From positions 1,550,001-1,614,000 of the forward strand of contig NC_012522.1 of NCBI RefSeq assembly GCF_000010805.1: DNA of 64,000 nucleotides, in the 5' to 3' direction. Below, one piece after another: positions 33,271 through 53,189 of this stretch. Within the stretch, counting starts at the first letter, position 1; every line of letters begins with the position of its first letter. A program made the position numbers and the translations under genes. The notes below the pieces were generated by a model, which saw only the letters and a list, made by a program, of their open reading frames with translations, had not been told where the DNA came from and did not search any database. Source of the DNA: Rhodococcus opacus B4 (lineage in GTDB: Bacteria; Actinomycetota; Actinomycetes; Mycobacteriales; Mycobacteriaceae).

Positions 33271-36503
<3,233 letters not shown>

Positions 36504-37412: not shown

Positions 37413-37461
37413 TTGACCCGCTCGTCCCACCGAAATAGCATTGTCCCATTCTGATATATCA
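37413..37461 (+). promoter_or_regulatory. Promoter and TGATATATCA operator of purU
   Basis: TTGACC (37413-37418), a 17-base spacer and TAGCAT (37436-37441) form a promoter. TGATATATCA follows at 37452-37461, ten bases after the -10. The purU start codon is 48 bases further on. Confidence 0.75.
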
Positions 37462-37509: not shown

Positions 37510-38358
37510 ATGACCCAGACCTTCACCCTGACGCTCAGCTGCGCGCAGCGTCCCGGGATCGTTCACGCAGTCAGCTCCTTTCTCTTCGAGCAGAACTGCG
37601 ATATCGCCGAGCATCAGCAATTCGACGACACCCTGAGCGACGCCTTCTTCCTCCGCACGTCGTTCGTGTCGGCGGAAGATGTCGACATCGAGCGCCTCAC
37701 CGACGAATTCCAGAGCGTCGCCACGAAGTTCGGCATGACGTTCACCGTCAACGGCAGCGACCTACCCCGCGTGATCGTGATGGTCTCCAAGATGGGCCAC
37801 TGCCTCAACGACCTCATCTTCCGCTGGCGAGCAGGCAACCTCGGCGCCGAACTCGTCGCCGTCGTCTCCAACCACGAGGTACTGCGACCGATGGCCGAGG
37901 CCGCCGGGCTGCCGTTCGTCCACGTCCCGGTCACCCCGGCCACCAAGCCGCAGGCCGAGGCCCGGCTGCTCGAACTGGTCGACGAATTCGACGCCGACCT
38001 CGTGGTCCTCGCCCGCTACATGCAGGTGCTGTCGGACGACGCGTGCCGGGCACTGCGCGGACGGGCGATCAACATCCACCACTCGTTCCTGCCCGGTTTC
38101 AAGGGCGCCAAGCCCTACCACCAGGCATTCGATCGCGGCGTCAAGCAGGTGGGCGCGACCGCCCACTACGTGACACCCGACCTCGACGAGGGCCCCATCA
38201 TCGAGCAGGAAGTCATCCGCATCGACCACACCTTCGACCCGGCGCGACTCGCCACGGTCGGGCAGGACGCCGAAGCGCTCGCACTGTCCCGGGCCGTGCG
38301 CTGGCACTGCGAGAACCGGGTCCTGCTCCACGGGCACCGGACGGTCGTCTTCAGCTGA
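37510..38358 (+). CDS. purU: Formyltetrahydrofolate deformylase
   Basis: This 282-residue enzyme hydrolyses 10-formyl-THF to formate and THF. It has an N-terminal ACT domain (about 1-80; SCAQRPGIVHAVSSFLFEQNCDIAEHQQF) and a formyltransferase domain with NIHHSFLPGFKGAKPYHQAFDRGVKQVGATAHYV and DLDEGPIIEQ, which identify PurU. In this setting it releases one-carbon units from methyl-group oxidation as formate and regenerates THF for dimethylglycine and sarcosine oxidation. A GAGGAGA site precedes the ATG. The gene has its own TGATATATCA-controlled promoter and is followed by a strong bidirectional hairpin. Confidence 0.96.
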   Translation: MTQTFTLTLSCAQRPGIVHAVSSFLFEQNCDIAEHQQFDDTLSDAFFLRTSFVSAEDVDIERLTDEFQSVATKFGMTFTVNGSDLPRVIVMVSKMGHCLNDLIFRWRAGNLGAELVAVVSNHEVLRPMAEAAGLPFVHVPVTPATKPQAEARLLELVDEFDADLVVLARYMQVLSDDACRALRGRAINIHHSFLPGFKGAKPYHQAFDRGVKQVGATAHYVTPDLDEGPIIEQEVIRIDHTFDPARLATVGQDAEALALSRAVRWHCENRVLLHGHRTVVFS

Positions 38359-38427: not shown

Positions 38428-39099
38428 CTACAGCAGGTCGCGGATCGCCTGCTCGAAGCCGGCGACGTGGGCGAGGGTGAGCGCCGAGGCGGTGTCCCCG
38501 TCGCCGTCGACGATGGCCCGCAGCAGTTCCGCGTGCTCGCGGACGTGGCTCGCCACGTCCGGCAGGCGGTCGAGGAACAGACACCAGATGCGGGTGGCGT
38601 GGGCGTCGAGGCTGACGAGGATGTCTTCGAGGTGCGGATTGCCGGACGCCCGGTAGATCTCGCGGTGCACCCGCACGTCCTTACGCAGGACGTCGCGCGG
38701 GTCTTCGCTGTCGTCGATCTGTGCGATCTCGTCGGCGAGCGCGGACAGCCGGGCTCGCGCGTCCTGCGATGCGGTCCGCGCCGCACGGGCGGCGGCGTTG
38801 GGTTCGAGTTGCTTGCGGATTTCGGAGATGTCGGCGAGGTCGGTCATGTCGACGGCGGTGGCGAACGTACCGCGACGGGGATAGGCGATGACGAGACGCT
38901 CCCGTTCGAGCCGCTTGAGCGCCTCCCGCACGGGGGTGCGGCCGAAGCCGAGTTCTTCGGCGAGGCGGTCGTCGTTGATCGGCTCGCCCGGCCGGATGTC
39001 GAGCATGACCAGGCGTTCGCGCACGATTTCGTACGCGCGGTCGGCGTTGGTGCCGCCGTTCGATGCCGCGTCCGCGACCGATGAATGCGCCAGGCTCAT
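38428..39099 (-). CDS. GntR-family regulator (FCD type), candidate regulator of the TGATATATCA regulon
   Basis: This 223-residue protein has an N-terminal GntR winged helix (about 20-85; INDDRLAEELGFGRTPVREALKRLERERLV) and a C-terminal all-helical FCD effector domain. The metal-binding histidines expected in FCD domains are at VRVHREIYRASGN, SHVREHAELL and LAHVAGF. It is divergent from glyA, and the 113-base spacer contains one of the four TGATATATCA sites in the window. FCD regulators often bind short AT-rich palindromes near their own gene. It is therefore the leading candidate to control all four units and itself. The ligand may be a small acid such as glycine, sarcosine or serine, but this is a guess. 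Confidence 0.92.
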   Translation of the reverse strand: MSLAHSSVADAASNGGTNADRAYEIVRERLVMLDIRPGEPINDDRLAEELGFGRTPVREALKRLERERLVIAYPRRGTFATAVDMTDLADISEIRKQLEPNAAARAARTASQDARARLSALADEIAQIDDSEDPRDVLRKDVRVHREIYRASGNPHLEDILVSLDAHATRIWCLFLDRLPDVASHVREHAELLRAIVDGDGDTASALTLAHVAGFEQAIRDLL

Positions 39100-39127: not shown

Positions 39128-39177
39128 TTGACCTTTGTCCGGTACTGACCTTACTCTACTTTCCAGTTGATATATCA
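39128..39177 (+). promoter_or_regulatory. Promoter and TGATATATCA operator of the glyA-sox operon
   Basis: TTGACC (39128-39133), an 18-base spacer and TACTCT (39152-39157) precede TGATATATCA (39168-39177), again ten bases after the -10. The site lies in the shared region with the divergent gntR gene, whose start is at 39099, so it may also serve autoregulation. Confidence 0.78.
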
Positions 39178-39212: not shown

Positions 39213-40538
39213 ATGACCGTGGACACCGCAAACCTCACCGAGGTGGCAGCAGCGAATCCGACGCTGACTCATTCGCTCGCCGATCTCGACCCCGCCGTGC
39301 ACCAGGCGATCGCGGCCGAACTGGAGCGGCAGCAGGGCACCCTGGAGATGATCGCCAGTGAGAATTTCGCCCCGCTCGCGGTGATGCAGGCGCAGGGGTC
39401 GGTGCTGACCAACAAGTACGCCGAGGGCTACCCCGGGCGCCGCTACTACGGTGGTTGCGAGCACGTCGACGTCATCGAGCAGCTCGCCATCGACCGCCTG
39501 ACGTCGCTGTTCGGCGCGGAGTTCGCGAACGTCCAACCGCACTCGGGGGCGCAGGCCAACGCGGCGGCGATGGCGGCGCTGCTGCAACCCGGCGACGGCA
39601 TCCTCGGACTGGACCTCGCCCACGGCGGTCACCTCACGCACGGGATGAAGCTCAACTTCTCCGGCAAGCTGTACGACGTCGCCGCCTACCATGTCGGCGA
39701 GGACGACCACCTCGTCGACATGGACGAGGTCGAGCGCCTCGCCCGCGAGCACCGCCCCAAGCTGATCATGGCCGGCTGGTCCGCCTACCCCCGCCGGCTC
39801 GACTTCGCCCGGTTCCGCGCGATCGCCGACGAGGTCGGCGCCTACCTGATGGTCGACATGGCGCACTTCGCCGGGCTGGTCGCCGCCGGACTGCACCCCT
39901 CCCCCGTCCCGCACGCGCACGTGGTGACGTCGACGACGCACAAGACCCTCGGCGGTCCCCGCGGCGGCGTCATCCTCACCAACGACGCGGCGCTGGCGAA
40001 GAAGTTCAACTCTTCGGTGTTCCCCGGACAGCAGGGTGGCCCGCTCGAGCACGTGATCGCCGGGAAGGCCGTGGCGTTCAAGCTCGCCGCCGAACCCGAG
40101 TTCCGCGAACGTCAGGAGCGCACCCTGGCCGGCGCGAAGATCCTCGCCGACCGCCTGCTGCAGGACGACTCCCGGGCCGCCGGCATCAACGTCGTCTCCG
40201 GCGGCACCGACGTCCACCTGGTCCTGGTGGATCTGCGCGAGTCCGAGCTCGACGGCAAGCAGGCCGAGGATCGGCTGCACCGCGTGGGAATCACGGTGAA
40301 CCGCAACGCCGTCCCGTTCGACCCCCGCCCGCCGATGGTGTCCTCCGGGGTGCGGATCGGCACCCCCGCGCTCGCCACCCGCGGTTTCGACGAGGCCGCG
40401 TTCACCGAGGTCGCCGACATCATCAGCCACGCGCTGCGCCCCGCCACCGACGAGGCCGGACTCGACGGCCTGCGCGCGCGGGTCGACGCCCTCGCCGCCG
40501 CGTTCCCGCTCTACCCCGACCTCACGGAGGCGAACTGA
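39213..40538 (+). CDS. glyA: Serine hydroxymethyltransferase
   Basis: This 441-residue PLP enzyme transfers the one-carbon unit of 5,10-methylene-THF to glycine to give serine, or the reverse. Signatures are [32 protein letters not shown] and [15 protein letters not shown] with the PLP lysine. It opens the sarcosine oxidase operon. In this setting glycine and methylene-THF, both products of sarcosine oxidation, would be joined to serine. This is probably a catabolic paralogue, with the housekeeping copy elsewhere; that cannot be checked here. An AAAGG site precedes the ATG. The next gene starts in a TGATG overlap. Confidence 0.97.
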
Positions 40539-41773
40539 TGAGTGCCACCCAGCCGCCCGGCGCCCACCTGCCCGACCACCCGGACTTCCTGTGGCGTAAC
40601 CCGGAACCGAAGAAGTCTTACGACGTCGTGATCGTCGGCGGCGGCGGGCACGGTCTCGCGACCGCCCACTATTTGGCCAAGAACCACGGCATCACCAACG
40701 TCGCCGTCCTGGAGAAGGGGTGGCTCGCGGGCGGGAACATGGCCCGCAACACCACGTTGATCCGCTCTAACTACCTGTGGGACGAGAGCGCGAAGATCTA
40801 CGAGCACGCGCTGAAGCTGTGGGAGGGCCTCGAGGACGACCTCGACTACCCGATCCTGTTCAGCCAGCGCGGCGTCCTCAACCTCGCGCACAGCCTCCAG
40901 GACGTCCGCGACAGCGTGCGCCGCGTCGAGGCCAACAAGCTCAACGGCATCGACGCCGAGTGGGTCGGGCCCGACGAGGTGAAGAAGCTGTGCCCGCTGG
41001 TGAACATCTCCAGCGACATCCGCTACCCCGTGATGGGTGCGACGTACCAGCCACGGGCCGGCATCGCCAAGCACGACTACGTGGCCTGGGGCTTCGCCCG
41101 GCGCGCCGACGAGGCCGGCATCGACATCATCCAGAACTGTGAGGTCACCGGCTTCGTCACCGACGGCAACAAGGTCACCGGAGTCCGCACCACCCGCGGC
41201 GACATCGCCGCCGGGCAGGTCGCGCTCTGCGCGGCGGGGCACACCTCCACCCTCACCGACATGCTCGGCATCCGCACCCCCGTGCAGTCCCACCCGCTCC
41301 AAGCCCTGGTCTCCGAACTGCTCGAGCCGGTGCACCCGACCATCGTGATGTCCAACGCCATCCACGTGTACGTCTCTCAGGCGCACAAGGGAGAACTGGT
41401 GATGGGCGCCGGTGTCGACTCCTACAACGGCTACGGCCAGCGCGGCGCGTTCCACATCATCGAACGCCAGATGGCGGCCGCGGTCGAACTGTTCCCGGTG
41501 TTCGCCCGCGCGCATCTGCTGCGCACCTGGGGCGGCATCGTCGACACCTGCCCCGACGCCTCCCCGATCGTCGGCCGCACCCCCTACGACAACGTGTATC
41601 TCAACTGCGGTTGGGGCACAGGAGGTTTCAAGGCAACCCCGGGGTTGGGCTGGTGTCTGGCGGACACCATTGCGAACGACGAACCGCACGAGTTCATCGC
41701 CCCGTTCAGCCTCGACCGGTTCGTCACCGGCGCCCTCGTCGACGAGCACGGCGCCGCAGCCGTCGCGCACTGA
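40538..41773 (+). CDS. soxB: Sarcosine oxidase beta subunit
   Basis: This 411-residue flavoprotein is the beta subunit of heterotetrameric sarcosine oxidase, which holds the covalent FMN and noncovalent FAD sites and oxidises the amine. It shows the [26 protein letters not shown] loop, the [20 protein letters not shown] segment and the C-terminal [18 protein letters not shown]. Tetrameric enzymes convert sarcosine, O2 and THF to glycine, H2O2 and methylene-THF. The order soxB-soxD-soxA-soxG is standard. The start overlaps the glyA stop by one base. Confidence 0.96.
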
Positions 41774-41792: not shown

Positions 41793-42071
41793 ATGCAACT
41801 CATCGAATGCCCGTGGTGCGGGTCCCGCGAGGAAACCGAGTTCCACTACGGCGGCGAAGCCCACGTCGTGTACCCGGACGATCCCGCGGAGCTCAGCGAC
41901 GAACAGTGGGCGCACTACGTGTTCTTCCGCGCGAACCCGAAGGGTCTCTTCGCGGAACGGTGGAACCACAGCGCCGGCTGCCGGCGCTGGTTCAACGCCG
42001 TACGAGACACCGCCACTTACCGATTCCACAGCGTCTACCGCTTGGACGAGCAGAAGCCGACGATATCGTGA
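41793..42071 (+). CDS. soxD: Sarcosine oxidase delta subunit
   Basis: This 92-residue protein is the small delta subunit of tetrameric sarcosine oxidase. It has the zinc-binding pattern CPWCGSREETEFHYGG near the N terminus and a later HSAGCRRWF that supplies another ligand. Its structural role is to bridge the alpha and beta subunits. A GGAAGGAG site precedes the ATG by nine bases. Its stop overlaps the GTG of soxA (GTGA), so the two are translationally coupled. Confidence 0.95.
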   Translation: MQLIECPWCGSREETEFHYGGEAHVVYPDDPAELSDEQWAHYVFFRANPKGLFAERWNHSAGCRRWFNAVRDTATYRFHSVYRLDEQKPTIS

Positions 42072-44938
42072 ACGCACCCTTCCGCACCCGCCAGGGCGGT
42101 CGCCTCGACCGCGACACCTCCTACACCTTCACGTTCGACGGCCGGGAACTGACCGGTCACCCCGGTGACACGCTCGGCTCGGCGCTGCTCGCGAACGGCG
42201 TCCATCAGGTCACCACCAGCATCAAGCTCGGCAGGCCCCGCGGCATCACCGCGGCGTGGGCGGAGGACACCGGCGGCCTGGTGCAGATCGAGGAGCCGTT
42301 CCCCGAGCCGATGCTGCTCGCCACCACCATCGAGTTGTTCGACGGCCTCGTCGCCCGCGGCATCCCCGGTCAGGGACGGCTCGCGACCATCGCCGATTCG
42401 GCGAAGTACGACGCCAAGCACGTCCACGCCGACGTTCTGGTCGCCGGCGCGGGGCCGGCCGGTCTCGCCGCCGCGCTCACCGCGGCCCGGGCCGGCGCGC
42501 GTGTCGTGATCGTCGACGAGCAGAGCGAAGCGGGCGGCGACCTGCTCGGCAGTACGGATCTGATCGACGGCGCCCCGGCGCTGGACTGGGTCGCCGCCGC
42601 GGTCGCCGAACTCGCCACCTACCCGGACGTGCTGCACCTGCAGCGCACCACCGCGTTCGGCAACTACGACGACGGCTTCGTCCTCGCCCTTCAGCGCCGC
42701 ACCGACCACCTCGGTGTCGAGGCCCCGGCCGCACTGAGCCGCCAGCGCGTCTGGCGGATCCGCGCCCGGCACATCCTCGTCGCCGCCGGCGCGCACGAAC
42801 GCCCGATCGTGTTCACCGACAACGACCGCCCGGGCATCATGCTCGCGCACGGTGCCCGCACCTTCCTGCACCGCTACGGTGTCAAGGTCGGCGAGCAGGC
42901 GGTCGTGTTCACCACCAACGACAGCGCGTACGAGGCGGCGATCGACCTGCACGACGCCGGCGTCCGGATCAACGCGGTCGTCGAGGCCCGCGATCAGGCA
43001 CCCGCCCGCTGGCTGGCCGAATGCGACAAGCGGGGTATCACGGTCCGCACCGGATCCGTCGTCAGCGGCACCCGCGGCAACGGCCGGGTCAGCCACGCCC
43101 TGGTCACCTCCCGCACCACCGAGGGCACCGCCGAGGGCACCGCCGCCGCGGTCCCGCTGGCCTGCGACGCACTGCTCGTCAGCGGCGGCTGGAACCCGGC
43201 CGTGCACCTGTTCAGCCAGGCCCGCGGCAAGCTCCGCTACGAGGAGAACCTCGGCGCGTTCGTGCCCGGCGAGGACCTGGACGGCGTCACCGTCGCCGGC
43301 TCCGCGAACGGCATCTTCGACCTCGGTGGCTGTCTGCACGACGGCGAAAGCGCGGGCCGGGGCATTCTGGGCGCGTTGGGCTTCGACGCCCCCGCAGCTC
43401 AGACCGCACCGTCCGCCGCACCCGAGACGACGAAGCCCCTGGTGCTCTGGCGGGTTCCCGACGTCGCCGGGCAGGACACCCAGTTCGTCGACGTCCAGCG
43501 CGACGCGACGGTCGCCGACCTCGCCCGCGCGGTCGGCGCCGGGATGACGTCGATGGAGCACATCAAGCGCTACACGACCATCGGCACCGCGCACGACCAG
43601 GGCAAGACCTCCGGGGTGATCTCCTCCGGCATCACCGCCGAACTCCTCGGCCGCCCGATCGAGACACTGGGCACCACCACGTTCCGCCCGCCGTACACCC
43701 CCGTCGCGTTCGCCGCCCTGGCCGGCCGCAGCCGCGGCGCCCTGTTCGATCCCGAAAGGGTGACGGCACTGCACGATTGGCACGTCGGCCGCGGCGCGGT
43801 GTTCGAGGACGTGGGCCAGTGGAAGCGTCCCCGCTACTACCCGCTGCCCGGGGAGGACATGGACGCGGCGGTGCTCCGCGAGTGCGCCGCCGTCCGCCGC
43901 AGTATCGGCATCCTCGACGGCTCGACCCTCGGCAAGATCGACGTCCAGGGACCCGACGCCGGCGTGCTGCTCGACATGCTCTACACGAACATGATGAGCA
44001 CCCTCAAGGTCGGCATGGTCCGCTACGGCGTCATGTGCGGCGTCGACGGCATGGTCATCGACGACGGCACCGTGATGCGCCTGGCCGACGACCGGTACCA
44101 GGTCTTCACCACCACCGGCGGCGCCGCGAAGATCCTCGACTGGATGGAGGAATGGCTCCAGACGGAATGGCCCCACCTGCAGGTGCGGCTCACCTCCGTC
44201 ACCGAACAGTGGGCGACGTTCCCCGTCGTCGGACCGAAATCGCGTGACGTGATCGGTGAGGTCTTCCCCGACCTCGACGTCGCCAACGACGCGTTTCCGT
44301 TCATGGCCTGGCGGGACACCGCCCTCGGCGACGTGCATGTGCGGGTGGCCCGGGTCAGCTTCTCCGGCGAACTCGCCTACGAGGTCAACGTCAACGGCTG
44401 GCACGCCCCCGCGGTCTGGGCACGCCTGATCGCCGCCGGCGAGAAGTTCGGCATCACCCCGTACGGCACCGAGACCATGCACGTCCTGCGCGCCGAGAAG
44501 GGCTATCCGATCATCGGGCAGGACACCGACGGCACCGTCACCCCCCAGGATCTCGGGATGAGCTGGGCGGTGTCGAAGAAGAAGGTCGACTTCGTCGGCA
44601 AGCGCTCCTTCAGCCGGGAGGAGAACCAGAACCCGCTGCGCAAGCAGTTCGTCGGACTGCTGCCCCTCGACAAGCAGACCGTGCTGCCCGAGGGCGCGCA
44701 GATCATCGAGGAGGTTCTGGACGGGAACTTGCCGCCCGCGCCGGTCCCGATGCTCGGGCACGTCACGTCCAGTTACCTCAGCGCCGAACTCGGCCGGCCG
44801 TTCGGTCTCGCCCTCGTCAAGGGTGGCCGGGCCCGAGTCGGTGACACCCTGCACGTCCCGGTGGACGGCCGTCTCGTGGCCGTGGAGGTCACCGGTTCCG
44901 TTCTCGTCGATCCCGAAGGAGCACGTCGCGATGGCTGA
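42068..44938 (+). CDS. soxA: Sarcosine oxidase alpha subunit
   Basis: This 956-residue protein is the alpha subunit. It has an N-terminal ferredoxin-fold region (FDGRELTGHPGDTLGSALLANG), an NAD-binding flavoprotein-like domain (ADVLVAGAGPAGLAAALTAARAG; about 120-480) and a C-terminal GcvT-like folate domain (about 590-950; GILDGSTLGKIDVQGPDAG and RAEKGYPIIGQDTDGTVTPQDLG). The folate domain takes the iminium intermediate and makes 5,10-methylene-THF. The GTG start overlaps the soxD stop. The length fits the family (about 965). It overlaps soxG by eight bases. Confidence 0.96.
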   Translation: MNAPFRTRQGGRLDRDTSYTFTFDGRELTGHPGDTLGSALLANGVHQVTTSIKLGRPRGITAAWAEDTGGLVQIEEPFPEPMLLATTIELFDGLVARGIPGQGRLATIADSAKYDAKHVHADVLVAGAGPAGLAAALTAARAGARVVIVDEQSEAGGDLLGSTDLIDGAPALDWVAAAVAELATYPDVLHLQRTTAFGNYDDGFVLALQRRTDHLGVEAPAALSRQRVWRIRARHILVAAGAHERPIVFTDNDRPGIMLAHGARTFLHRYGVKVGEQAVVFTTNDSAYEAAIDLHDAGVRINAVVEARDQAPARWLAECDKRGITVRTGSVVSGTRGNGRVSHALVTSRTTEGTAEGTAAAVPLACDALLVSGGWNPAVHLFSQARGKLRYEENLGAFVPGEDLDGVTVAGSANGIFDLGGCLHDGESAGRGILGALGFDAPAAQTAPSAAPETTKPLVLWRVPDVAGQDTQFVDVQRDATVADLARAVGAGMTSMEHIKRYTTIGTAHDQGKTSGVISSGITAELLGRPIETLGTTTFRPPYTPVAFAALAGRSRGALFDPERVTALHDWHVGRGAVFEDVGQWKRPRYYPLPGEDMDAAVLRECAAVRRSIGILDGSTLGKIDVQGPDAGVLLDMLYTNMMSTLKVGMVRYGVMCGVDGMVIDDGTVMRLADDRYQVFTTTGGAAKILDWMEEWLQTEWPHLQVRLTSVTEQWATFPVVGPKSRDVIGEVFPDLDVANDAFPFMAWRDTALGDVHVRVARVSFSGELAYEVNVNGWHAPAVWARLIAAGEKFGITPYGTETMHVLRAEKGYPIIGQDTDGTVTPQDLGMSWAVSKKKVDFVGKRSFSREENQNPLRKQFVGLLPLDKQTVLPEGAQIIEEVLDGNLPPAPVPMLGHVTSSYLSAELGRPFGLALVKGGRARVGDTLHVPVDGRLVAVEVTGSVLVDPEGARRDG

Positions 44939-45524
44939 CACCCTCACCCCGCTCAGCCCCCTGCACGGCTGGGACCAGAAGTTCTCGGCACTCCCCGAGT
45001 CGGTCCGCATCACGGAGGAACCGTTCGTCTCGATGGTCGATCTGTGGGTGGACCCGGCCGGCCCCGGTGGGGCGGCGGCGGCCGCCGCGCTCGGTGTCGA
45101 CCTGCCCACGACACCGTCGACCCGCGTGGACAGCGGCGCGGTCACCGCGGTCTGGCTCGGTCCGGAGGAATGGCTGATCACCACGCGATCCCAGTCACCC
45201 GAGGAGCTCGAGGGCACGCTGCGGACCGCGGTGACCCCGCACGGCGGCGCGGCAATCGACGTCTCCGGGCAGCGCACCACGATCCGGCTCACCGGAGCGC
45301 ACGCCCGCGACATCCTCGCCAAGGGCTGCTCGATCGACCTGCACCCCAGGGTGTTCCGGCCGGGATCGGCCGTGCAGACCATGCTCGGTCTCGCCGGTGT
45401 CGTCCTCATCCCCCTCGACGACAGCGGCACCGACTACCGGATCCTGGTGCGGGCGTCCTTCGCCCGGTATCTCGCGGCGTGGCTGATCGACGCCGCCGAG
45501 GAGTTCGGCGTCGATCCGGTGTAA
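44931..45524 (+). CDS. soxG: Sarcosine oxidase gamma subunit
   Basis: This 197-residue protein is the gamma subunit of heterotetrameric sarcosine oxidase. It is a shortened GcvT-like fold (WLGPEEWLITTRS, AIDVSGQRTTIRLTGAHARDILAKGCSIDLHPRVF) that stabilises the complex rather than binding folate. A GAAGGAG site precedes the ATG, and the gene overlaps soxA by eight bases. After its stop a GC-rich hairpin (45541-45569) separates it from the folate genes downstream. Confidence 0.94.
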   Translation: MADTLTPLSPLHGWDQKFSALPESVRITEEPFVSMVDLWVDPAGPGGAAAAAALGVDLPTTPSTRVDSGAVTAVWLGPEEWLITTRSQSPEELEGTLRTAVTPHGGAAIDVSGQRTTIRLTGAHARDILAKGCSIDLHPRVFRPGSAVQTMLGLAGVVLIPLDDSGTDYRILVRASFARYLAAWLIDAAEEFGVDPV

Positions 45525-45569: not shown

Positions 45570-45599
45570 GCCGATCCCATTCTGGAAGGAGTGCGTCGG

Positions 45600-46499
45600 A
45601 TGGCCTCGTCCCCTGCTCTCATCGCGTCCCACCCCGACCGCCTGCTCACCGCGCTCGCCCGCGACGTTCCCCTGGTCTGCGGCGTCGTCAACGTGACCCC
45701 GGATTCGTTCTCGGACGGCGGCCGCTTCCTCGATCGTGCACGGGCGGTCGATCACGGGTTGTCGCTCGTCGCCGAGGGTACCGATCTCCTCGACGTCGGC
45801 GGGGAGTCGACCCGGCCCCGCTCGACACCGCCGTCGGTGTCCGACGAGATCGCCCGGGTGGTTCCCGTGGTCGAGGCGCTCGCGCGCCACACCTCGGTCC
45901 CGATCTCGGTCGACACCTCACGTCCCGAGGTGATGAGGGAGGCGGTCGCCGCCGGCGCGTCGATGATCAACGACGTCCGTGCCCTGCGACTGCCCGGCGC
46001 TCTGCATGCCGCCGCCGACCTGCGGGTCCCGGTCTGCCTCATGCACATGCTCGGCGATCCGGCGACGATGCAGGACGCACCGCAGTATCGGGACGTCGTG
46101 CACGAGGTCCGACAATTCCTCCTCACCCGCATCGACGCCTGCCACACCGCCGGCATCCCGAGCGAACGCATCCTGCTCGACCCCGGGTTCGGATTCGGCA
46201 AAACACTCACCCACAACCTCGAGCTGCTGTCGCGGCTGCCCGAGATCGCCGACCTCGGCTTTCCGGTCATGGCCGGACTCTCGCGCAAAGGCATGCTGGG
46301 GGCCATCACCGGCCGCGACGTCGACCACCGCCAAGCCGCCTCCGTCGCCGCCGCGATGATCGCCGCCCAGAACGGCGCAGCCATCCTCCGCGTCCACGAC
46401 GTCGCCGCCACCGTGGACGCGGTATCGGTACTGCGCGCGCTCGTATATCGTGGTCCCGCCAGCTCCAGTCACGCGCCGAATCGAGACTCCGCCCAGTGA
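45600..46499 (+). CDS. folP: Dihydropteroate synthase homologue
   Basis: This 299-residue TIM-barrel protein has the FolP signatures: GVVNVTPDSFSDGG, LLDVGGESTRPRS, SVDTSRPEVMREAVAAGASMINDVRAL, LLDPGFGFGKTLTHNLELL and GLSRKGMLG. It should join p-aminobenzoate to hydroxymethyl-dihydropterin diphosphate. The ATG at 45600 is used because GGAAGGA lies nine bases upstream; a GTG at 45591 is too close to that site. Its presence after soxG suggests extra folate synthesis when THF-dependent demethylation runs, an inference from context. Mycobacteria carry a second, inactive FolP-like protein, so activity needs testing, but the motifs here are intact. Confidence 0.92.
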   Translation: MASSPALIASHPDRLLTALARDVPLVCGVVNVTPDSFSDGGRFLDRARAVDHGLSLVAEGTDLLDVGGESTRPRSTPPSVSDEIARVVPVVEALARHTSVPISVDTSRPEVMREAVAAGASMINDVRALRLPGALHAAADLRVPVCLMHMLGDPATMQDAPQYRDVVHEVRQFLLTRIDACHTAGIPSERILLDPGFGFGKTLTHNLELLSRLPEIADLGFPVMAGLSRKGMLGAITGRDVDHRQAASVAAAMIAAQNGAAILRVHDVAATVDAVSVLRALVYRGPASSSHAPNRDSAQ

Positions 46500-47155
46500 A
46501 CACCTCCGTGTCCGCCGCAGCGGGGCTCGCGACGATCGACACAGCTGACGTCCAGCTGATGGAGACGATGTATCACGATCCCCGCACCGGCTTGCGGCAT
46601 CTCGACCGTCACCTGCGACGTCTCGCCCGTTCCGCCTCTGTGCTCGGGTACGAGTTCCAGGAGCGAGAGGTCCAGCGCCACCTCGCGCAACAGCTGTCGT
46701 GCGCCGGAGCGGCCCGGGTTCGGGTGCGCCTGCACCGCGACGGCGAGGTCGAAGTCGACATCTTCGCGCCCCCGGTCGCGCCTGCCTGTGTATCCCTCGT
46801 CCTCGACGACGAGCCCGTCGATTCCCTCGACATCCTCCTCGGGCACAAGACGACGTTGCGCGAGCGGTACGACCGCAGGCGTCACCGCAATCCCGATGCC
46901 GACGACGTCGTGCTGGTCAACGAACTCGGGCACGTCACCGAGACCACGATCGCGAACCTCGCCGCCCGGATCGACGGCGTCTGGTGGACGCCGCCGTTGT
47001 CGTCGGGGTGCCTGCCCGGTGTCGAGCGGTCGTGGCAGGTCGACCGCGGGTTGATGCGCGAGCGGATTCTCACGCCGGGCGACCTCCTGGCCGCCGAGGC
47101 GCTCGCCGTGACGAGCTCACTCAAGGGTGTGCTGCCCGCGACCCTCCGGTCGTAG
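46496..47155 (+). CDS. Class IV aminotransferase fold protein, probable aminodeoxychorismate lyase
   Basis: This 219-residue protein has the class IV PLP fold: an N-terminal LMETMYHDPRTGLRHLDRHLRRLARSASVLG segment, a central LGHKTTLRERYDRRR in which Lys118 should bind PLP, and VNELGHVTETTIANLAARIDGVWWTPPLSSGCLPGVER. It is shorter than typical PabC (about 270). PabC releases pyruvate from aminodeoxychorismate to give p-aminobenzoate, the FolP substrate, and the gene overlaps folP in a GTGA. The two would thus act in sequence. A role in branched-chain or D-amino-acid transamination is less likely given the neighbours. Confidence 0.8.
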   Translation: MNTSVSAAAGLATIDTADVQLMETMYHDPRTGLRHLDRHLRRLARSASVLGYEFQEREVQRHLAQQLSCAGAARVRVRLHRDGEVEVDIFAPPVAPACVSLVLDDEPVDSLDILLGHKTTLRERYDRRRHRNPDADDVVLVNELGHVTETTIANLAARIDGVWWTPPLSSGCLPGVERSWQVDRGLMRERILTPGDLLAAEALAVTSSLKGVLPATLRS

Positions 47156-47188: not shown

Positions 47189-47240
47189 TTGACCCCACCC
47201 TGACACCTGACCTACCGTTATCACTCACACTGATATATCA
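47189..47240 (+). promoter_or_regulatory. Promoter and TGATATATCA operator of the gcvH-like-sdaA operon
   Basis: TTGACC (47189-47194), an 18-base spacer and TACCGT (47213-47218) precede TGATATATCA (47231-47240) by twelve bases. The gcvH-like start codon lies 68 bases downstream. This is the fourth copy of the same promoter-operator design. Confidence 0.72.
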
Positions 47241-47308: not shown

Positions 47309-47728
47309 ATGAGAGCTCGACAGATTCCCTCGGATCGACGGTTCACGGCCACGCACGGCTGGGTGGCCCTCCCACCGGGACAGAACTTCTCCGACTTCCC
47401 CTTGCGGGCAGGCGTCACCGACCGCGCTCTCGACGACATCGACGTGGTCGGCGTCGACCTGCCTGCAGTGCGAAGCACTGTCGACGCGGGTTCCCCCTGC
47501 GCCGTGATCTGGTCGTCCGCGCGGACCGCCGTCACGGTGTACGCGCCGATCAGCGGCCTGATCACGATGACGAACGGTGACGCCTCCGCGGACCCGGCGC
47601 TCGTCGCCGAAGATCCGTTTCACCGTGGCTGGTTGTTCGCCATCCTGCCGACCGCGTCGTCGTCCACGTACGGCCTGCTGACCCCCGCGCAGTACGCGAC
47701 CGAACTCAGCGAGACGGTGACCCTGTGA
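47309..47728 (+). CDS. GcvH-like protein without the lipoyl lysine
   Basis: This 139-residue protein aligns with glycine cleavage H protein throughout: [49 protein letters not shown] and [12 protein letters not shown]. In true GcvH the lipoylated lysine lies six residues before the tyrosine of YAPVSG. Here that position is Arg72 ([16 protein letters not shown]), so normal lipoylation is not possible. No GcvP or GcvT gene is in the window. It is coupled to the serine dehydratase gene by a GTGA overlap and has a TGATATATCA-controlled promoter. It may be a regulatory or structural relic of the H protein. A GGAAAAGG site precedes the ATG. Confidence 0.8.
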
Positions 47729-49107
47729 CGATCAGCGTGTTCGACCTGTTCTCCGTCGGTGTCGGCCCCTCGAGTTCGCACACCGTCGGGCCCATGCGCG
47801 CGGCCGCCCGTTTCGTGGCCGACCTGCACACGCTCGGCGCGTTCGACGACGTCACCGATGTCCGCGTCGACCTGTACGGCTCACTCGCCGCGACCGGCGC
47901 CGGCCACGGGACGATGTCCGCAGTTCTGCTCGGACTCGAAGGGTACCGGCCCGAGACGATCGAAACCGAGGAGATGGAGCAGCGACTCGAGTCGATGCGG
48001 ACCACGCGGCGCATCGCGCTCGGCGGTTCGCACCACATCGCGCTGGCCGAGGACGAGATCGTGCTTCACCCGCTGACGATCCTGCCGTTCCACCCGAACG
48101 GGATGACGGTGACGGCGTATGCGGCCGGGAACGTGGAAATCCATCGGGAGACGTACTTCTCGATCGGTGGCGGGTTCGTGGTCACCGAAGCCGAGAGCAC
48201 GGAACACCGGCCGGCGCCGGCGAGCGGGTCGTCGTTCGGGTCCGCGAAGGAACTCCTCGACATCTGCGCGCGGCACGGTTACCGCATCAGCCAGGTCATG
48301 CTCGAGTTCGAGAGCGAAACCCGCTCGGCCGAGGAAATCCGAGACCGGCTGCTCCACATCCGCGACGTCATGGTCGAGTGCGAGCGGCGCGGAATCTCCC
48401 GCGACGGACTCCTTCCCGGCGCCCTGCGCGTCCGGCGTCGCGCCCGGGACTGGTATCTCCGGCTCGATCAGGAAGACCCGCACCGTGATCCCGCGTTCGC
48501 GGAGGACTGGGTCAACCTCGTCGCGCTCGCGGTCAACGAGGAGAACGCGGCGGGTGGGCGCATCGTCACTGCCCCCACAAACGGCGCCGCGGGCATCATT
48601 CCCGCCGTCCTGCACTACGCCGTCCACTACACGCCCGCCGGCCGGGCCGACCCGGACGAGACCGCAGTCCGGTTCCTCCTCGCGGCCGGCGCGGTCGGAT
48701 CCCTGTACAAGGAGCGGGCATCGATCTCCGGCGCCGAAGTCGGCTGCCAGGGCGAGGTGGGTTCGGCGGCGTCGATGGCAGCCGCAGGGCTCGCCGAGAT
48801 CCTCGGCGGCACACCGGCACAGGTGGAGAACGCCGCGGAGATCGCCATGGAGCACAGCCTCGGCCTCACCTGCGACCCCATCGAAGGCCTCGTCCAGATT
48901 CCGTGCATCGAGCGGAACGCGATCTCGGCGGGCAAGGCCATCAACGCCGCCCGGATGGCCCTGCGCGGCGACGGCACCCACCGCGTCAGCCTGGACCAGG
49001 TGATCGAGACGATGCGGTCGACCGGCGCCGACATGCTGTCGAAGTACAAGGAGACGTCCACCGGCGGTCTCGCAGTCAACGTTCCGGTCAACTATGTCGA
49101 GTGCTGA
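47725..49107 (+). CDS. sdaA: L-serine ammonia-lyase (iron-sulfur type)
   Basis: This 460-residue single-chain enzyme deaminates L-serine to pyruvate and ammonia using a [4Fe-4S] cluster. The beta domain at the N terminus reads [24 protein letters not shown]. Cluster cysteines are in [38 protein letters not shown], consistent with the three-cysteine pattern of the family. It would move serine made by GlyA into central metabolism, completing the route from choline or creatine to pyruvate. The GTG start overlaps the gcvH-like stop. It ends the operon with possible read-through into a small unknown gene that overlaps its 3' end. Confidence 0.96.
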
Positions 49108-49792
49108 CGTGATCACCGACGAACTCCGCCTTCTGCCCGCCCGTGCCGCGCAGTTCATTCGGCGGCACCGCGACGCCGGCGACTGCGCACCCGAGACGGG
49201 ATTCTCCGTTCTCGAAGTCCTCGTGCACTGCGCGCAGGTTCGCGGCGAGGCGTTCGTGGCGTTCCAGTTGCTGAGCCGACTCGACCTGCCCGGGCCCGAC
49301 ATCCTGCAGCAGGCCGGCCTGGACGACGCGCTCGCCGTTCTCGATTCGTTCGCCGTGACCGAACACGAATGTGCGGAGACGTTCGGCCCGAATTGGCCGC
49401 ACGTCATGATGCACGCCGTCGACGCGACAGCAGTCCTGGACGACCGCCTCGAAGAGCTGGGACGGCCGAGCGATGCCGTCGACAGCCGCCCGAGACTCGC
49501 CGCCTGGGTCTGCGCCCGCGATGCGGCCTGGGCGGCGGGACGGATCAAATCCTGGTACCGCGCCCAGGACGCTGCCTGGGAACGGCGCTACATGGACGAG
49601 GTGACCCTGAGGGAGGACGAGCGGCTGTGCTCGGATCTCGCGACTGCAGTGCGTGACGCGGCGGCCGCGTTCGCGGTGGCGGATCTGGTGGGTACGGGCG
49701 ACTTCACCCGCGCCCACTTCGAGACGCTGCTGGGGCCGTGGCGCCTCTGCTCGCCGGAGGCCGGTTCGCAGCTGCGAGCACTGCTTCGGTGA
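49094..49792 (+). CDS. Hypothetical protein, overlapping sdaA and convergent kinase gene
   Basis: I do not recognise this 232-residue protein. It is mostly alpha-helical with many Ala, Asp and Arg residues, has no signal peptide or membrane segment and is probably cytoplasmic. Its ATG lies 14 bases inside the sdaA end; a GTG at 49109 just after the sdaA stop is an alternative. Its last 89 bases overlap the kinase gene on the other strand. The helix pattern with scattered His and Trp faintly recalls DinB/maleylpyruvate-isomerase-type helical bundles, but I cannot support that call. Confidence 0.55.
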
Positions 49793-52700
49793 ACGCCCGC
49801 GGCAGGCCCGGGTGATCGTTCCGGGTCAGGGCCGACAGCGCCGCGACGACGTTCGGGCCACCGTCGGGGAGGAACCGGATCAGGTCGTGCCGGGCGCAGT
49901 CGACCGCCGCGGGCAGTAGAGCCGCCTGCGCCTCCTCGACGCGTCCCGCCGCCCACAGGCACGCGACCAGCAATCGGACCGCCTGCAGCCTGGCCCGATG
50001 CCGTCCGGTGCCGTCGAGTTCCCGCACCCAGTCGTTCGCCCACTCGCACGCCCGCTCCGCCGCACCCGGATCACCCTGCGCCTCGAGCAACCTGATGGCC
50101 GACTCCTCCTCGAGTTGCGCTGTCGCCAGTCCGATTCCGTCGGCGGGGGTTCGCCGGGTCTCGTGGGTGACTGCGACGAACCCCGGCCCCGGAGGCAACC
50201 CGATCCGCACCCGCTCGGCGTCGACCGCGGCGCGCAGCCGTGGCAGGGAGAACGTCTCGGCCGTCCGCGCACCCTCGTCGAGTCGGCGGGCCGCGGCCTC
50301 GCGATCGCCGCGCACGGCCATGATGCGTGCTCCGAGGCAGTAGTGCCGGATCATGAAATCCGCTGCGCCGCCGAGCGCGGCCGCGTCGAAACTCTCGTTG
50401 AGCAACTCCTCGGCCTCGTCGACCCGGCCCTGTTCGTAGTGAACTTCGGCGAGCAGCGCGCGTGTCAGGCGCGCATGCGGCGACTGCGTGTTCGCCGCCT
50501 CCCGGACCAAGTCGAACGCCCTGCGGTACAACTCCATCGCACCACCGAGGTCGAGCTGCTCGAACTTCGCGAGTCCGGCGAAGCAGTATCCGTACGCCAC
50601 CGAGTACGGCCCGGTGTTCTGCCGGTGGTACGGGGCGGCCCAGCTCTGCCTCCGGTACGCATCCTCGAACCGGAATTCGTAGCAGTCGACGTACGTCTCG
50701 ATGAGCGCGGCCATCGACACCACGAACGGGTGATACTCCGCGGGCTGCGCGAGGCATTCGGCGACGAGATCGCGCACCCCCTCGATGCGGTCGGCGGTCG
50801 CCTCGATGTCGCCTTGCAGGACATCGGCTTCCACCCGGAGCTCTGCGGCGCGGCGTTCCGGCATCTCCCCGGCGTCGAGTTGTTCGAGCGCGCGGGTGCG
50901 CGCGGCCTGCGCGAGTTCGAGACGCTGCAGTTCGCAGTTCGCCCACCCGATGGTGAGCTGCAGCCGGGGGCGCGAGGCCACCAACTCGGCAGGCAGCTTC
51001 GCGATCAGGCAGAGCAACGTCGACATCTGGGACCTGTCGAGGAGGTAGAGGTCGTCCTCCTCGAGCAGTTCCACCGCTCGCTGCGGTTCACCGGCGGCGA
51101 GGATGTGATCGACGGCCTCGCGGAGCAGGTGCCGCTCCCGGAACCAGTCGTGCGCCCTGCGGTGCAGGTCCGTGATGCGTCCGGGGTGGTCCCGTTCGAG
51201 GCGCTGGTGGAGGATCTGAGCGAACAGGTGGTGGTAGCGGTACCACTGCCGGTCGTCGCCCGTCCGGCCGAGGAACAGATCGCGCGCGGCGACCTGCTCG
51301 AGTTTCGCCTGCCCGTCCGGCACCCCTGCCAGCGCCGACGCCAGGTCACCGCACACCTTGCCGGGGACCGACGTGGCGAGCATGAAATCGAGCATGTCGG
51401 GTTCGAGGGCGTCGAGCACGTTCTCGGCCAGATACTCACCGATGGCGTCGGTACCCGCCCGGAGTTGCTCGATGAGATTCTCCGGACTTCCCGCTTCCCG
51501 CAACGACAGCGACGCCAACTGCAGCGCCGCGATCCAGCCGTCCGTCGAGTCCCGGAGTTGTTCGACGTCGGTGTCGTCCAGGGGCACCCGAACTCGGTCC
51601 GACAGGAAGTTCTGCGATTCGTCGAAATCGAAAGCCAGTTCGCCGGAGTCTATTTCGTTCAGTTCGTCGAGCACCCGCATCCGGCTCAGCGGCAACCCCG
51701 CCCGGCTCCGGCTCGCCACGACGATCTTCAGGTGGTGGCATCCGTTGTCCAGGAGGAATGTCATCGCGTCGACCGGTCCGGCATCGGTGATCCGATGCCA
51801 GTCGTCGATCACGACGACCAGGGCTTCCCCGCTGTCGTGAAGCCGGTTGATCAGCGAGGTGAGAACGAAGCGCTCCACCGTGCCCCCGTGTTCCTCGAGG
51901 GCTTGACCGAGTTCGCCGACGACCTCGGGGCGGACCCGCCGGATCGCCTCGACCAGATGGGAGAGAAACCACACCAGATGGTTGTCGTCCCGATCGACGG
52001 TGAGCCATGCGACCGCGGTTCCGGCCTCGACCAGGTCGTCGCGCCACTGGGCCACCAGACTGCTCTTGCCGAACCCGGCCGGCGCGTGGACGAGGGTCAA
52101 CCTTCGGTCGCGGCCCGCCCGGAGGGCGGTGATCAGCCGCCGCCGTGGCACGAGCCGCCGGGTGGTGGTGGGTGGGCGGAACTTCGTCACCGGCGCGGGC
52201 GGAGTCGGCGGCGTCCGCACGTTGTACGGGAGCCCGGTGCCGCGGGACCGGGTGGATTCGCCGGCGATGTCGGTGGACTGCTCGGGTGCCCGCCGAATCG
52301 GGATGTACATGTCGTCGACGGTCAGTCCGTTGCGTCGCTCCACCGCGCGAAGCTCGTTGCCGAAGTCCGCGGCACCGCCCGGCCTGTCCTCGACCGCGCG
52401 AGACATGGCATGTTCGACGGCACTGCACACGTCGCCGGGGATTCCGGCGTCCCGCAGATCGGGGACGGCCTGTGTGGAAATCCGCAGGAACTGACCGACT
52501 ACCTGTTCGCCGCTGCGGCGCTCGTACGCGGCGTGACCGGTCAGCGCGCAGAACAGCGTGGACCCGAGACTGTAGACGTCCGACTCGACCGTCGGCGGCC
52601 TGCCTTCGAGTACCTCGGGCGCAGTGAACGCCGGGGAGCCGGTGATCGAGCCGGCCGTCGTCTCGAATCCACCCGAGACGCGGGCGATGCCGAAGTCGGT

Positions 52701-53189
52701 CAACTGCGGTTCGTCGTATTCGGTGAGCAGGATGTTCGCCGGCTTGACGTCGCGGTGGAGCATCCCACCGCGATGCGCGGTCTCGAGGGCGCCGGAGATC
52801 TTGATCCCGAGCCTCAGCACGTCCTGCCACCCGAGAGGCCCCGAACGACGGATCTGCGCGTCGAGGGAACCGAAAGAGTGGTACGGCATGACGAGAAACG
52901 GGCGCCCGCTCCGGGTGACCCCGATCTGGTAGACGGCGACGATGTTCGGGTGGCCGGACGTGCGGCCCATCGCCCGTTGCTCCCGCACGAACCTCGTCAC
53001 GTTGTCGGGATCGAGGTTCGACGTCAGGACTTTGACGGCGACCGTGCGATCGAGGTCTTCCTGCAGGCAGCGGTACACGACCCCGAACCCGCCGCGGCCG
53101 ATTTCCACGGCATCGTCGAACCCCGCCGCTGCCAGCTCCGACGTGATGTCCGTCTGGCGCTGGGTTGCCCACGGATCGTCGTTCGCCAT
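49704..53189 (-). CDS. PknK/AcoK-like serine/threonine kinase fused to a MalT-like ATPase
   Basis: This 1161-residue protein starts with a eukaryotic-type kinase domain (about 25-285): glycine loop GRGGFGVVY, VAVKVL lysine, HRDVKPANILL catalytic loop, DFGIAR and GSPAFTAPE. After a Pro/Thr-rich linker comes a STAND-type ATPase with Walker A APAGFGKSS near residue 370 and Walker B VVVIDDWH, then a long helical repeat region like MalT. The order matches mycobacterial PknK. No LuxR-type helix-turn-helix is seen at the C terminus, so it probably signals through phosphorylation or protein contacts. The target is unknown; its place among sarcosine and creatine genes may be chance. An GGAGG site lies upstream of the ATG. 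Confidence 0.93.
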   Translation of the reverse strand: MANDDPWATQRQTDITSELAAAGFDDAVEIGRGGFGVVYRCLQEDLDRTVAVKVLTSNLDPDNVTRFVREQRAMGRTSGHPNIVAVYQIGVTRSGRPFLVMPYHSFGSLDAQIRRSGPLGWQDVLRLGIKISGALETAHRGGMLHRDVKPANILLTEYDEPQLTDFGIARVSGGFETTAGSITGSPAFTAPEVLEGRPPTVESDVYSLGSTLFCALTGHAAYERRSGEQVVGQFLRISTQAVPDLRDAGIPGDVCSAVEHAMSRAVEDRPGGAADFGNELRAVERRNGLTVDDMYIPIRRAPEQSTDIAGESTRSRGTGLPYNVRTPPTPPAPVTKFRPPTTTRRLVPRRRLITALRAGRDRRLTLVHAPAGFGKSSLVAQWRDDLVEAGTAVAWLTVDRDDNHLVWFLSHLVEAIRRVRPEVVGELGQALEEHGGTVERFVLTSLINRLHDSGEALVVVIDDWHRITDAGPVDAMTFLLDNGCHHLKIVVASRSRAGLPLSRMRVLDELNEIDSGELAFDFDESQNFLSDRVRVPLDDTDVEQLRDSTDGWIAALQLASLSLREAGSPENLIEQLRAGTDAIGEYLAENVLDALEPDMLDFMLATSVPGKVCGDLASALAGVPDGQAKLEQVAARDLFLGRTGDDRQWYRYHHLFAQILHQRLERDHPGRITDLHRRAHDWFRERHLLREAVDHILAAGEPQRAVELLEEDDLYLLDRSQMSTLLCLIAKLPAELVASRPRLQLTIGWANCELQRLELAQAARTRALEQLDAGEMPERRAAELRVEADVLQGDIEATADRIEGVRDLVAECLAQPAEYHPFVVSMAALIETYVDCYEFRFEDAYRRQSWAAPYHRQNTGPYSVAYGYCFAGLAKFEQLDLGGAMELYRRAFDLVREAANTQSPHARLTRALLAEVHYEQGRVDEAEELLNESFDAAALGGAADFMIRHYCLGARIMAVRGDREAAARRLDEGARTAETFSLPRLRAAVDAERVRIGLPPGPGFVAVTHETRRTPADGIGLATAQLEEESAIRLLEAQGDPGAAERACEWANDWVRELDGTGRHRARLQAVRLLVACLWAAGRVEEAQAALLPAAVDCARHDLIRFLPDGGPNVVAALSALTRNDHPGLPRAFTEAVLAAANRPPASRGATAPAASRSGRG

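Follow-up and report, generated by a model that had tools for sequence, protein, structure and literature searches.

The H-protein of the glycine cleavage system (GcvH; PF01597, TIGR00527) is defined by its lipoyl arm, and GcvH-like proteins found outside the glycine cleavage operon, namely the GcvH-L proteins of SirTM/macrodomain operons and the chlamydial TIGR03077 proteins, are tied to lipoate ligases. In the Escherichia coli H-protein, Glu12 and Glu14 hold the aminomethyl-lipoate arm and Ser67 gates its release (PMC7733448). A GcvH paralogue recruited to another pathway is LbpA of Hdr-like sulfur oxidation, with the lipoyl lysine kept in all 95 proteins aligned (PMC6067878). The glyA-soxBDAG-sdaA-purU clusters of Arthrobacter and Corynebacterium encode the same route from sarcosine to pyruvate as the locus analyzed here, and the description of the Arthrobacter cluster does not mention a GcvH-like gene (PMC3534580).

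The window, that is, the whole stretch of 64,000 nucleotides analyzed, is part of the 7.91-Mb chromosome of an 8.83-Mb Rhodococcus genome most closely related to R. koreensis, R. wratislaviensis, R. jostii, and R. opacus. It harbors a sarcosine/dimethylglycine cluster in the order dimethylglycine dehydrogenase-like gene, folD-like gene, purU, gntR, glyA, soxBDAG, folP, pabC-like gene, GcvH-like gene, sdaA, and an open reading frame starting at 49094, with the following features.

33296..33305, plus strand: TGATATATCA, before the dimethylglycine dehydrogenase-like gene
33419..35884, plus strand: dimethylglycine dehydrogenase-like protein with a GcvT-type folate domain (DAO, FAO_M, GCV_T, GCV_T_C)
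37452..37461, plus strand: TGATATATCA, before purU
37510..38358, plus strand: purU, formyl-tetrahydrofolate deformylase (TIGR00655)
38428..39099, minus strand: GntR-family regulator, named from sequence and position
39168..39177, plus strand: TGATATATCA, between gntR and glyA-soxBDAG
39213..40538, plus strand: glyA, serine hydroxymethyltransferase (profile match)
40538..41773, plus strand: soxB, from frame and operon position; conserved in the clusters of relatives
41793..42071, plus strand: soxD (TIGR01374 above cut-off)
42068..44938, plus strand: soxA with a GcvT-type folate domain (TIGR01372, GCV_T)
44931..45524, plus strand: soxG, weakly GcvT-like (SoxG PF04268 above cut-off, GCV_T below)
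45591..46499, plus strand: folP, dihydropteroate synthase (TIGR01496)
46496..47155, plus strand: class IV aminotransferase, aminodeoxychorismate-lyase-like (pabC-like; profile match below the equivalog cut-offs)
47231..47240, plus strand: TGATATATCA, 69-78 bp ahead of the GcvH-like start
47309..47728, plus strand: GcvH-like protein without the lipoyl lysine (translation, Pfam GCV_H, AF2 model, tree)
47725..49107, plus strand: sdaA, fused iron-sulfur L-serine dehydratase (TIGR00720, 663 bits)
49094..49792, plus strand: conserved protein 3' of sdaA, kept in Rhodococcus (61-87%) and Aldersonia (45%)

The initial annotation stated that no other glycine cleavage gene lies in the window. This is correct for gcvP, gcvT, and gcvH, but not for the folate domains, as SoxA and the dimethylglycine dehydrogenase-like protein both carry GcvT-type ones (SoxG falls below the cut-off). 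The protein at 49094-49792 gave no match in Pfam or NCBIfam. Downstream, a large protein on the minus strand (49704-53189), which from the appearance of its sequence is a Ser/Thr protein kinase-like region fused to a MalT/LuxR-type ATPase region, adjoins the cluster in most of the genus relatives examined.

The GcvH-like open reading frame starts with ATG and encodes 139 residues. Its product scored 57.6 bits against Pfam GCV_H (cut-off 22.2) and 65.6 bits against the gcvH equivalog model TIGR00527 (cut-off 115.85), and is thus an H-fold protein failing the gcvH equivalog test. The AF2 model confidently predicts the H-protein fold (mean pLDDT 90), with Mycobacterium marinum GcvH as its best structural match (TM 0.83/0.91). 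The ten top matches include E. coli apo-H and chains of the E. coli H-T complex, and all 22 PDB matches at E <= 0.001 are H-protein chains, some of them in complexes, or GcvH-L. The core motifs HxW, DLP/ELP, PxSG, and DPxxxGWLF are common to GcvH and the GcvH-like protein.

At the lipoyl-lysine site stands Arg72, six residues ahead of Tyr78 in YAPISG, within an otherwise well-kept fold, just as the initial annotation had described. The ES[TV]K lipoylation motif reads SSAR, and there is no lysine among the 139 residues, which makes lipoylation on a different lysine, the finding named beforehand as speaking against a non-lipoylated role, impossible. In an alignment of 47 lipoylatable sequences with 14 main-clade members of the 16 lysine-less sequences, all 47 have the lipoyl lysine as ES-x-K. 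It is also present in every canonical GcvH locus checked across the class, so its absence here is not sampling noise. The residue at this position in the main clade is arginine in nine sequences, histidine in three, and tryptophan and glycine in one each; the lysine was therefore lost with several replacements, and the K-to-R group that had been proposed does not exist as such. The 47 lipoylatable sequences share five further invariant positions, E14, E61, K64, S67, and D/E68 (E. coli numbering), every one of which is lost in 14/14 of the main clade. Replacements are T/G/M/S/K for E12, S/G for E14, and V/I/L/C for S67, and L36, G37, and F/Y41 are likewise altered. The main clade has acquired conserved positions of its own: W68 (12/14), which is a one-residue Trp insert ahead of the hairpin tip, A20 (14/14), T76 (13/14), S118 (14/14), and an LP pair at 113-114. 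Lacking lysine and both the cavity and the gate residues, the GcvH-like protein cannot carry the aminomethyl-lipoyl group. Its function is independent of lipoate, in agreement with the non-lipoylated role suggested earlier, and the product of 47309-47728 is a glycine cleavage H-protein paralogue free of lipoate.

Ten congeneric genomes encode lysine-less relatives; others come from Hoyosella, Nocardia transvalensis, and Aldersonia, and two more genomes with such a gene belong to a further genus of the same family (g16). The lysine-less sequences group as one clade (bootstrap/SH-aLRT 99/93; once the site columns are taken out, 99/91). This clade branches from within lipoylatable GcvH2, the type encoded in gcvP-gcvT-gcvH-glyA-sdaA operons, and the lysine-less H descends from the GcvH2 of such an operon. 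The wide GcvH alignment suggested in the initial annotation thus does recover a distinct group, sdaA-linked in its main clade, but the group is lysine-less and not K-to-R. The g16 sequences are divergent and shortened at both ends. In a test for long-branch artefact a single origin was best, with a separate origin not rejected (AU p 0.109). Within the g16 sox operons these short genes follow purU (L045 9733-10038, L046 9787-10185). The nearest lipoylatable kin, in genomes G065 and G217, are H-sdaA pairs remote from gcvP/gcvT. Lipoylatable gcvH-sdaA two-gene units without nearby gcvP/gcvT lie at L041 8322-10113 and L131 9872-11625, in two genomes other than that of the window, which suggests an older tie of the H-protein to serine dehydratase.

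The dN/dS of the lysine-less H is 0.11-0.31 in the better-resolved congeneric pairs and 0.44-0.48 in two near-identical pairs, compared with 0.18 for lipoylatable gcvH2 and 0.05-0.12 for sdaA, so that it evolves faster than SdaA. The gene is intact in every sampled main-clade genome, spanning several genera. It is maintained by purifying selection, and a pseudogene is disfavored by the dN/dS values and the intact frames. With the lipoyl residues lost, this means that the protein is constrained for something other than lipoyl chemistry.

Over the entire 8.83-Mb genome there are exactly four copies of the 10-mer TGATATATCA, each preceding a unit of this cluster and one of them the GcvH-like gene, which upholds the promoter link drawn in the initial annotation. 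The 10-mer is kept upstream of the GcvH-like orthologues of R. koreensis and three genomes of the genus (L049, L126, L127, L128) and also stands beside gntR/sox in most other family members. Most sox clusters of the family likewise retain gntR itself beside the element and the sox genes, and from this arrangement the GntR protein is the likely reader of the element. Sharing this unique putative promoter element, the GcvH-like gene is assigned by sequence to the sarcosine/dimethylglycine regulon. We regard its identity as a lysine-less H together with this membership as very probable. Folate-synthesis genes recur in or beside sarcosine clusters (45591-47155 in the window; L126 9961-12011; L125 2285-5805; L056 1473-3602), with folP and the pabC-like gene here, pabAB in G204 and beside the Aldersonia H-sdaA pair, and pabAB plus folC in a second R. 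koreensis sox cluster. This recurrence suggests that tetrahydrofolate supply is induced together with sarcosine use.

The paralogue is an integral part of the sarcosine/dimethylglycine catabolic cluster in soil bacteria of the Rhodococcus opacus group and in some relatives, and all sampled carriers of the lysine-less H have sox genes. Nine genomes of the genus combine soxD with the lysine-less H, and 18 others lack both; a tenth genome, a MAG of 74% completeness, has the lysine-less H beside soxA and soxB. In the family sample, 9/17 soxD genomes carry it, and a search for any H protein in the other eight family sox clusters found none. Nor was an H protein found near 32 sox clusters across the class, seven of which contain sdaA; positive controls for these searches passed. 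Forty sox clusters without any H rule out a general sox component, and the lysine-less H is thus dispensable in general and a lineage-specific addition.

The lysine-less H probably works by binding another protein and not by carrying a chemical group, and protein docking is its most likely mode of action. As candidate jobs, the initial annotation had put forward the binding of a folate-enzyme domain, glycine sensing, and stabilization of the dehydratase. The best explanation overall, which we put forward tentatively, is that the lipoate-free paralogue is a docking protein accessory to SdaA in the sarcosine route. The protein would work solely as a folded docking protein, with the L-serine dehydratase encoded by the overlapping downstream gene as its most likely partner. 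It would then assist, as accessory subunit or adaptor, the conversion of serine to pyruvate that ends a route running from sarcosine to glycine and CH2-THF, to serine, and to pyruvate, where the CH2-THF and glycine from SoxA, dimethylglycine dehydrogenase, and GlyA may need joint draining. The overlapping gene and the shared descent place this accessory role first. At 47725 the GTG start of sdaA shares the sequence GTGA with the stop of the GcvH-like gene, and every main-clade locus examined has the lysine-less H immediately ahead of sdaA, which supports the coupling to sdaA noted initially. The sox-linked SdaA proteins of the main clade form a single clade (96/96).

However, several observations count against SdaA. 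In the g16 genome G061, which has the lysine-less H in its sox operon, SdaA was not found genome-wide at E <= 1e-40. Seven other sox clusters have sdaA and no H, the description of the Arthrobacter cluster names no GcvH-like gene (PMC3534580), and the second R. koreensis sox cluster has the same type of SdaA without an adjoining H. The H-sdaA adjacency is also partly inherited, as the nearest lipoylatable kin already adjoin sdaA in the phylogeny, and is weaker evidence for a partnership than the initial annotation assumed. Partial distance correlation of the lysine-less H was 0.61 (p 0.001) with SdaA and 0.76 with GntR; with GntR scoring as highly, this correlation is not partner-specific, and naming a partner by it was dropped. 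Since co-inheritance accounts for part of the link, confidence in SdaA as the partner is low, and we consider it possible.

Ranked second, and rather unlikely, is an interaction like that between GcvH and GcvT, in which the lysine-less H would dock on a folate domain of GcvT type (that of SoxA, SoxG, or the dimethylglycine dehydrogenase-like protein) and so tune one-carbon delivery to tetrahydrofolate or the coupling to GlyA. GcvH ancestrally partners with GcvT, and GcvT-type domains are encoded in the same regulon. Sox genes accompany every sampled carrier, and in G061 the H persists in the sox operon where SdaA was not found. At the position of E. coli D43, all 16 lysine-less sequences retain an acidic residue, D or E. 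However, the eight family and 32 class sox clusters lack any H, and the most altered parts are the hairpin and the helix-1/strand-3 region, which should lie near the contact with the T-protein (L36, G37, and F41 lost). Moreover, the rates of the lysine-less H are uncorrelated with those of the SoxA folate domain.

Somewhat less likely still, and third in rank, is a decoy role, in which the lysine-less H would vie with lipoylated GcvH for binding to GcvP or GcvT and damp glycine cleavage during sarcosine use, saving glycine as the methylene-THF acceptor for serine. Outside the window the genome encodes two GcvP and two lipoylatable GcvH proteins, one of the two glycine cleavage sets being gcvP-gcvT-gcvH-glyA-sdaA, and full-length GcvP was found in 14/14 genomes checked, carriers and non-carriers alike. 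The metabolic logic fits, as demethylation already overproduces CH2-THF, and both the retained fold and the TGATATATCA element common to the lysine-less H and sox are compatible with such a decoy. However, residues near the lipoyl hairpin and helix 1, which a mimic would be expected to keep, are changed, and no report of an apo-H inhibiting glycine cleavage was found in the open-access literature.

That the gene is a relic carried along with sdaA, still weakly constrained but functionally unimportant today, is improbable and ranked fourth. The inherited adjacency, the faster evolution relative to SdaA, the shortened g16 copies, and the many sox clusters that manage without H would fit a relic, but not the intact genes in all sampled main-clade genomes of several genera, a dN/dS in most pairs similar to that of working gcvH2, the clade-specific conserved residues, or the retention of a dedicated putative promoter element. 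Finally, an active H-protein lipoylated elsewhere or bearing another group can practically be dismissed despite the good overall H fold, given zero lysines, the loss of all known lipoyl-handling residues, and two normal GcvH genes already in the genome.

The accessory role beside SdaA thus remains the preferred reading of the partner. We see roughly even chances for the broader proposal of a pseudo-carrier, an arm-less H that would be a cofactor-free adaptor linking folate-dependent demethylation to serine dehydratase, or shutting down glycine cleavage during sarcosine use. If true, this would be an analogue, in one-carbon metabolism, of the pseudoenzyme.

Among known systems, the nearest is GcvH2 of the gcvP-gcvT-gcvH-glyA-sdaA operons, which has the fold, the length, and the operon kinship with sdaA in common with the GcvH-like protein. 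Unlike GcvH, the protein lacks the lipoyl lysine, the recognition Glu, the cavity Glu pair, and the gate Ser, has the one-residue Trp hairpin insert and a sub-cut-off equivalog score, and is encoded in a sarcosine cluster and not beside gcvP/gcvT. The other GcvH-like proteins outside glycine cleavage operons show weak kinship, with 14% identity to the GcvH-L structure 5a35 (Foldseek), and TIGR03077 scores 31.8 bits against 144. LbpA is likewise a repurposed GcvH (PMC6067878), but it retains the lysine, and the neighbors of the GcvH-like gene are sox, glyA, folP, and sdaA, not hdr. A lysine-less GcvH clade is unreported in the open-access literature searched. Such a clade warns against taking certain GcvH annotations as a sign of glycine cleavage, and offers a natural means of asking if one-carbon flow is regulated by apo-H proteins. 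With the H-proteins known by their lipoyl arm, an arm-less clade under selection in another regulon indicates that the function of the H fold is separable from lipoate.
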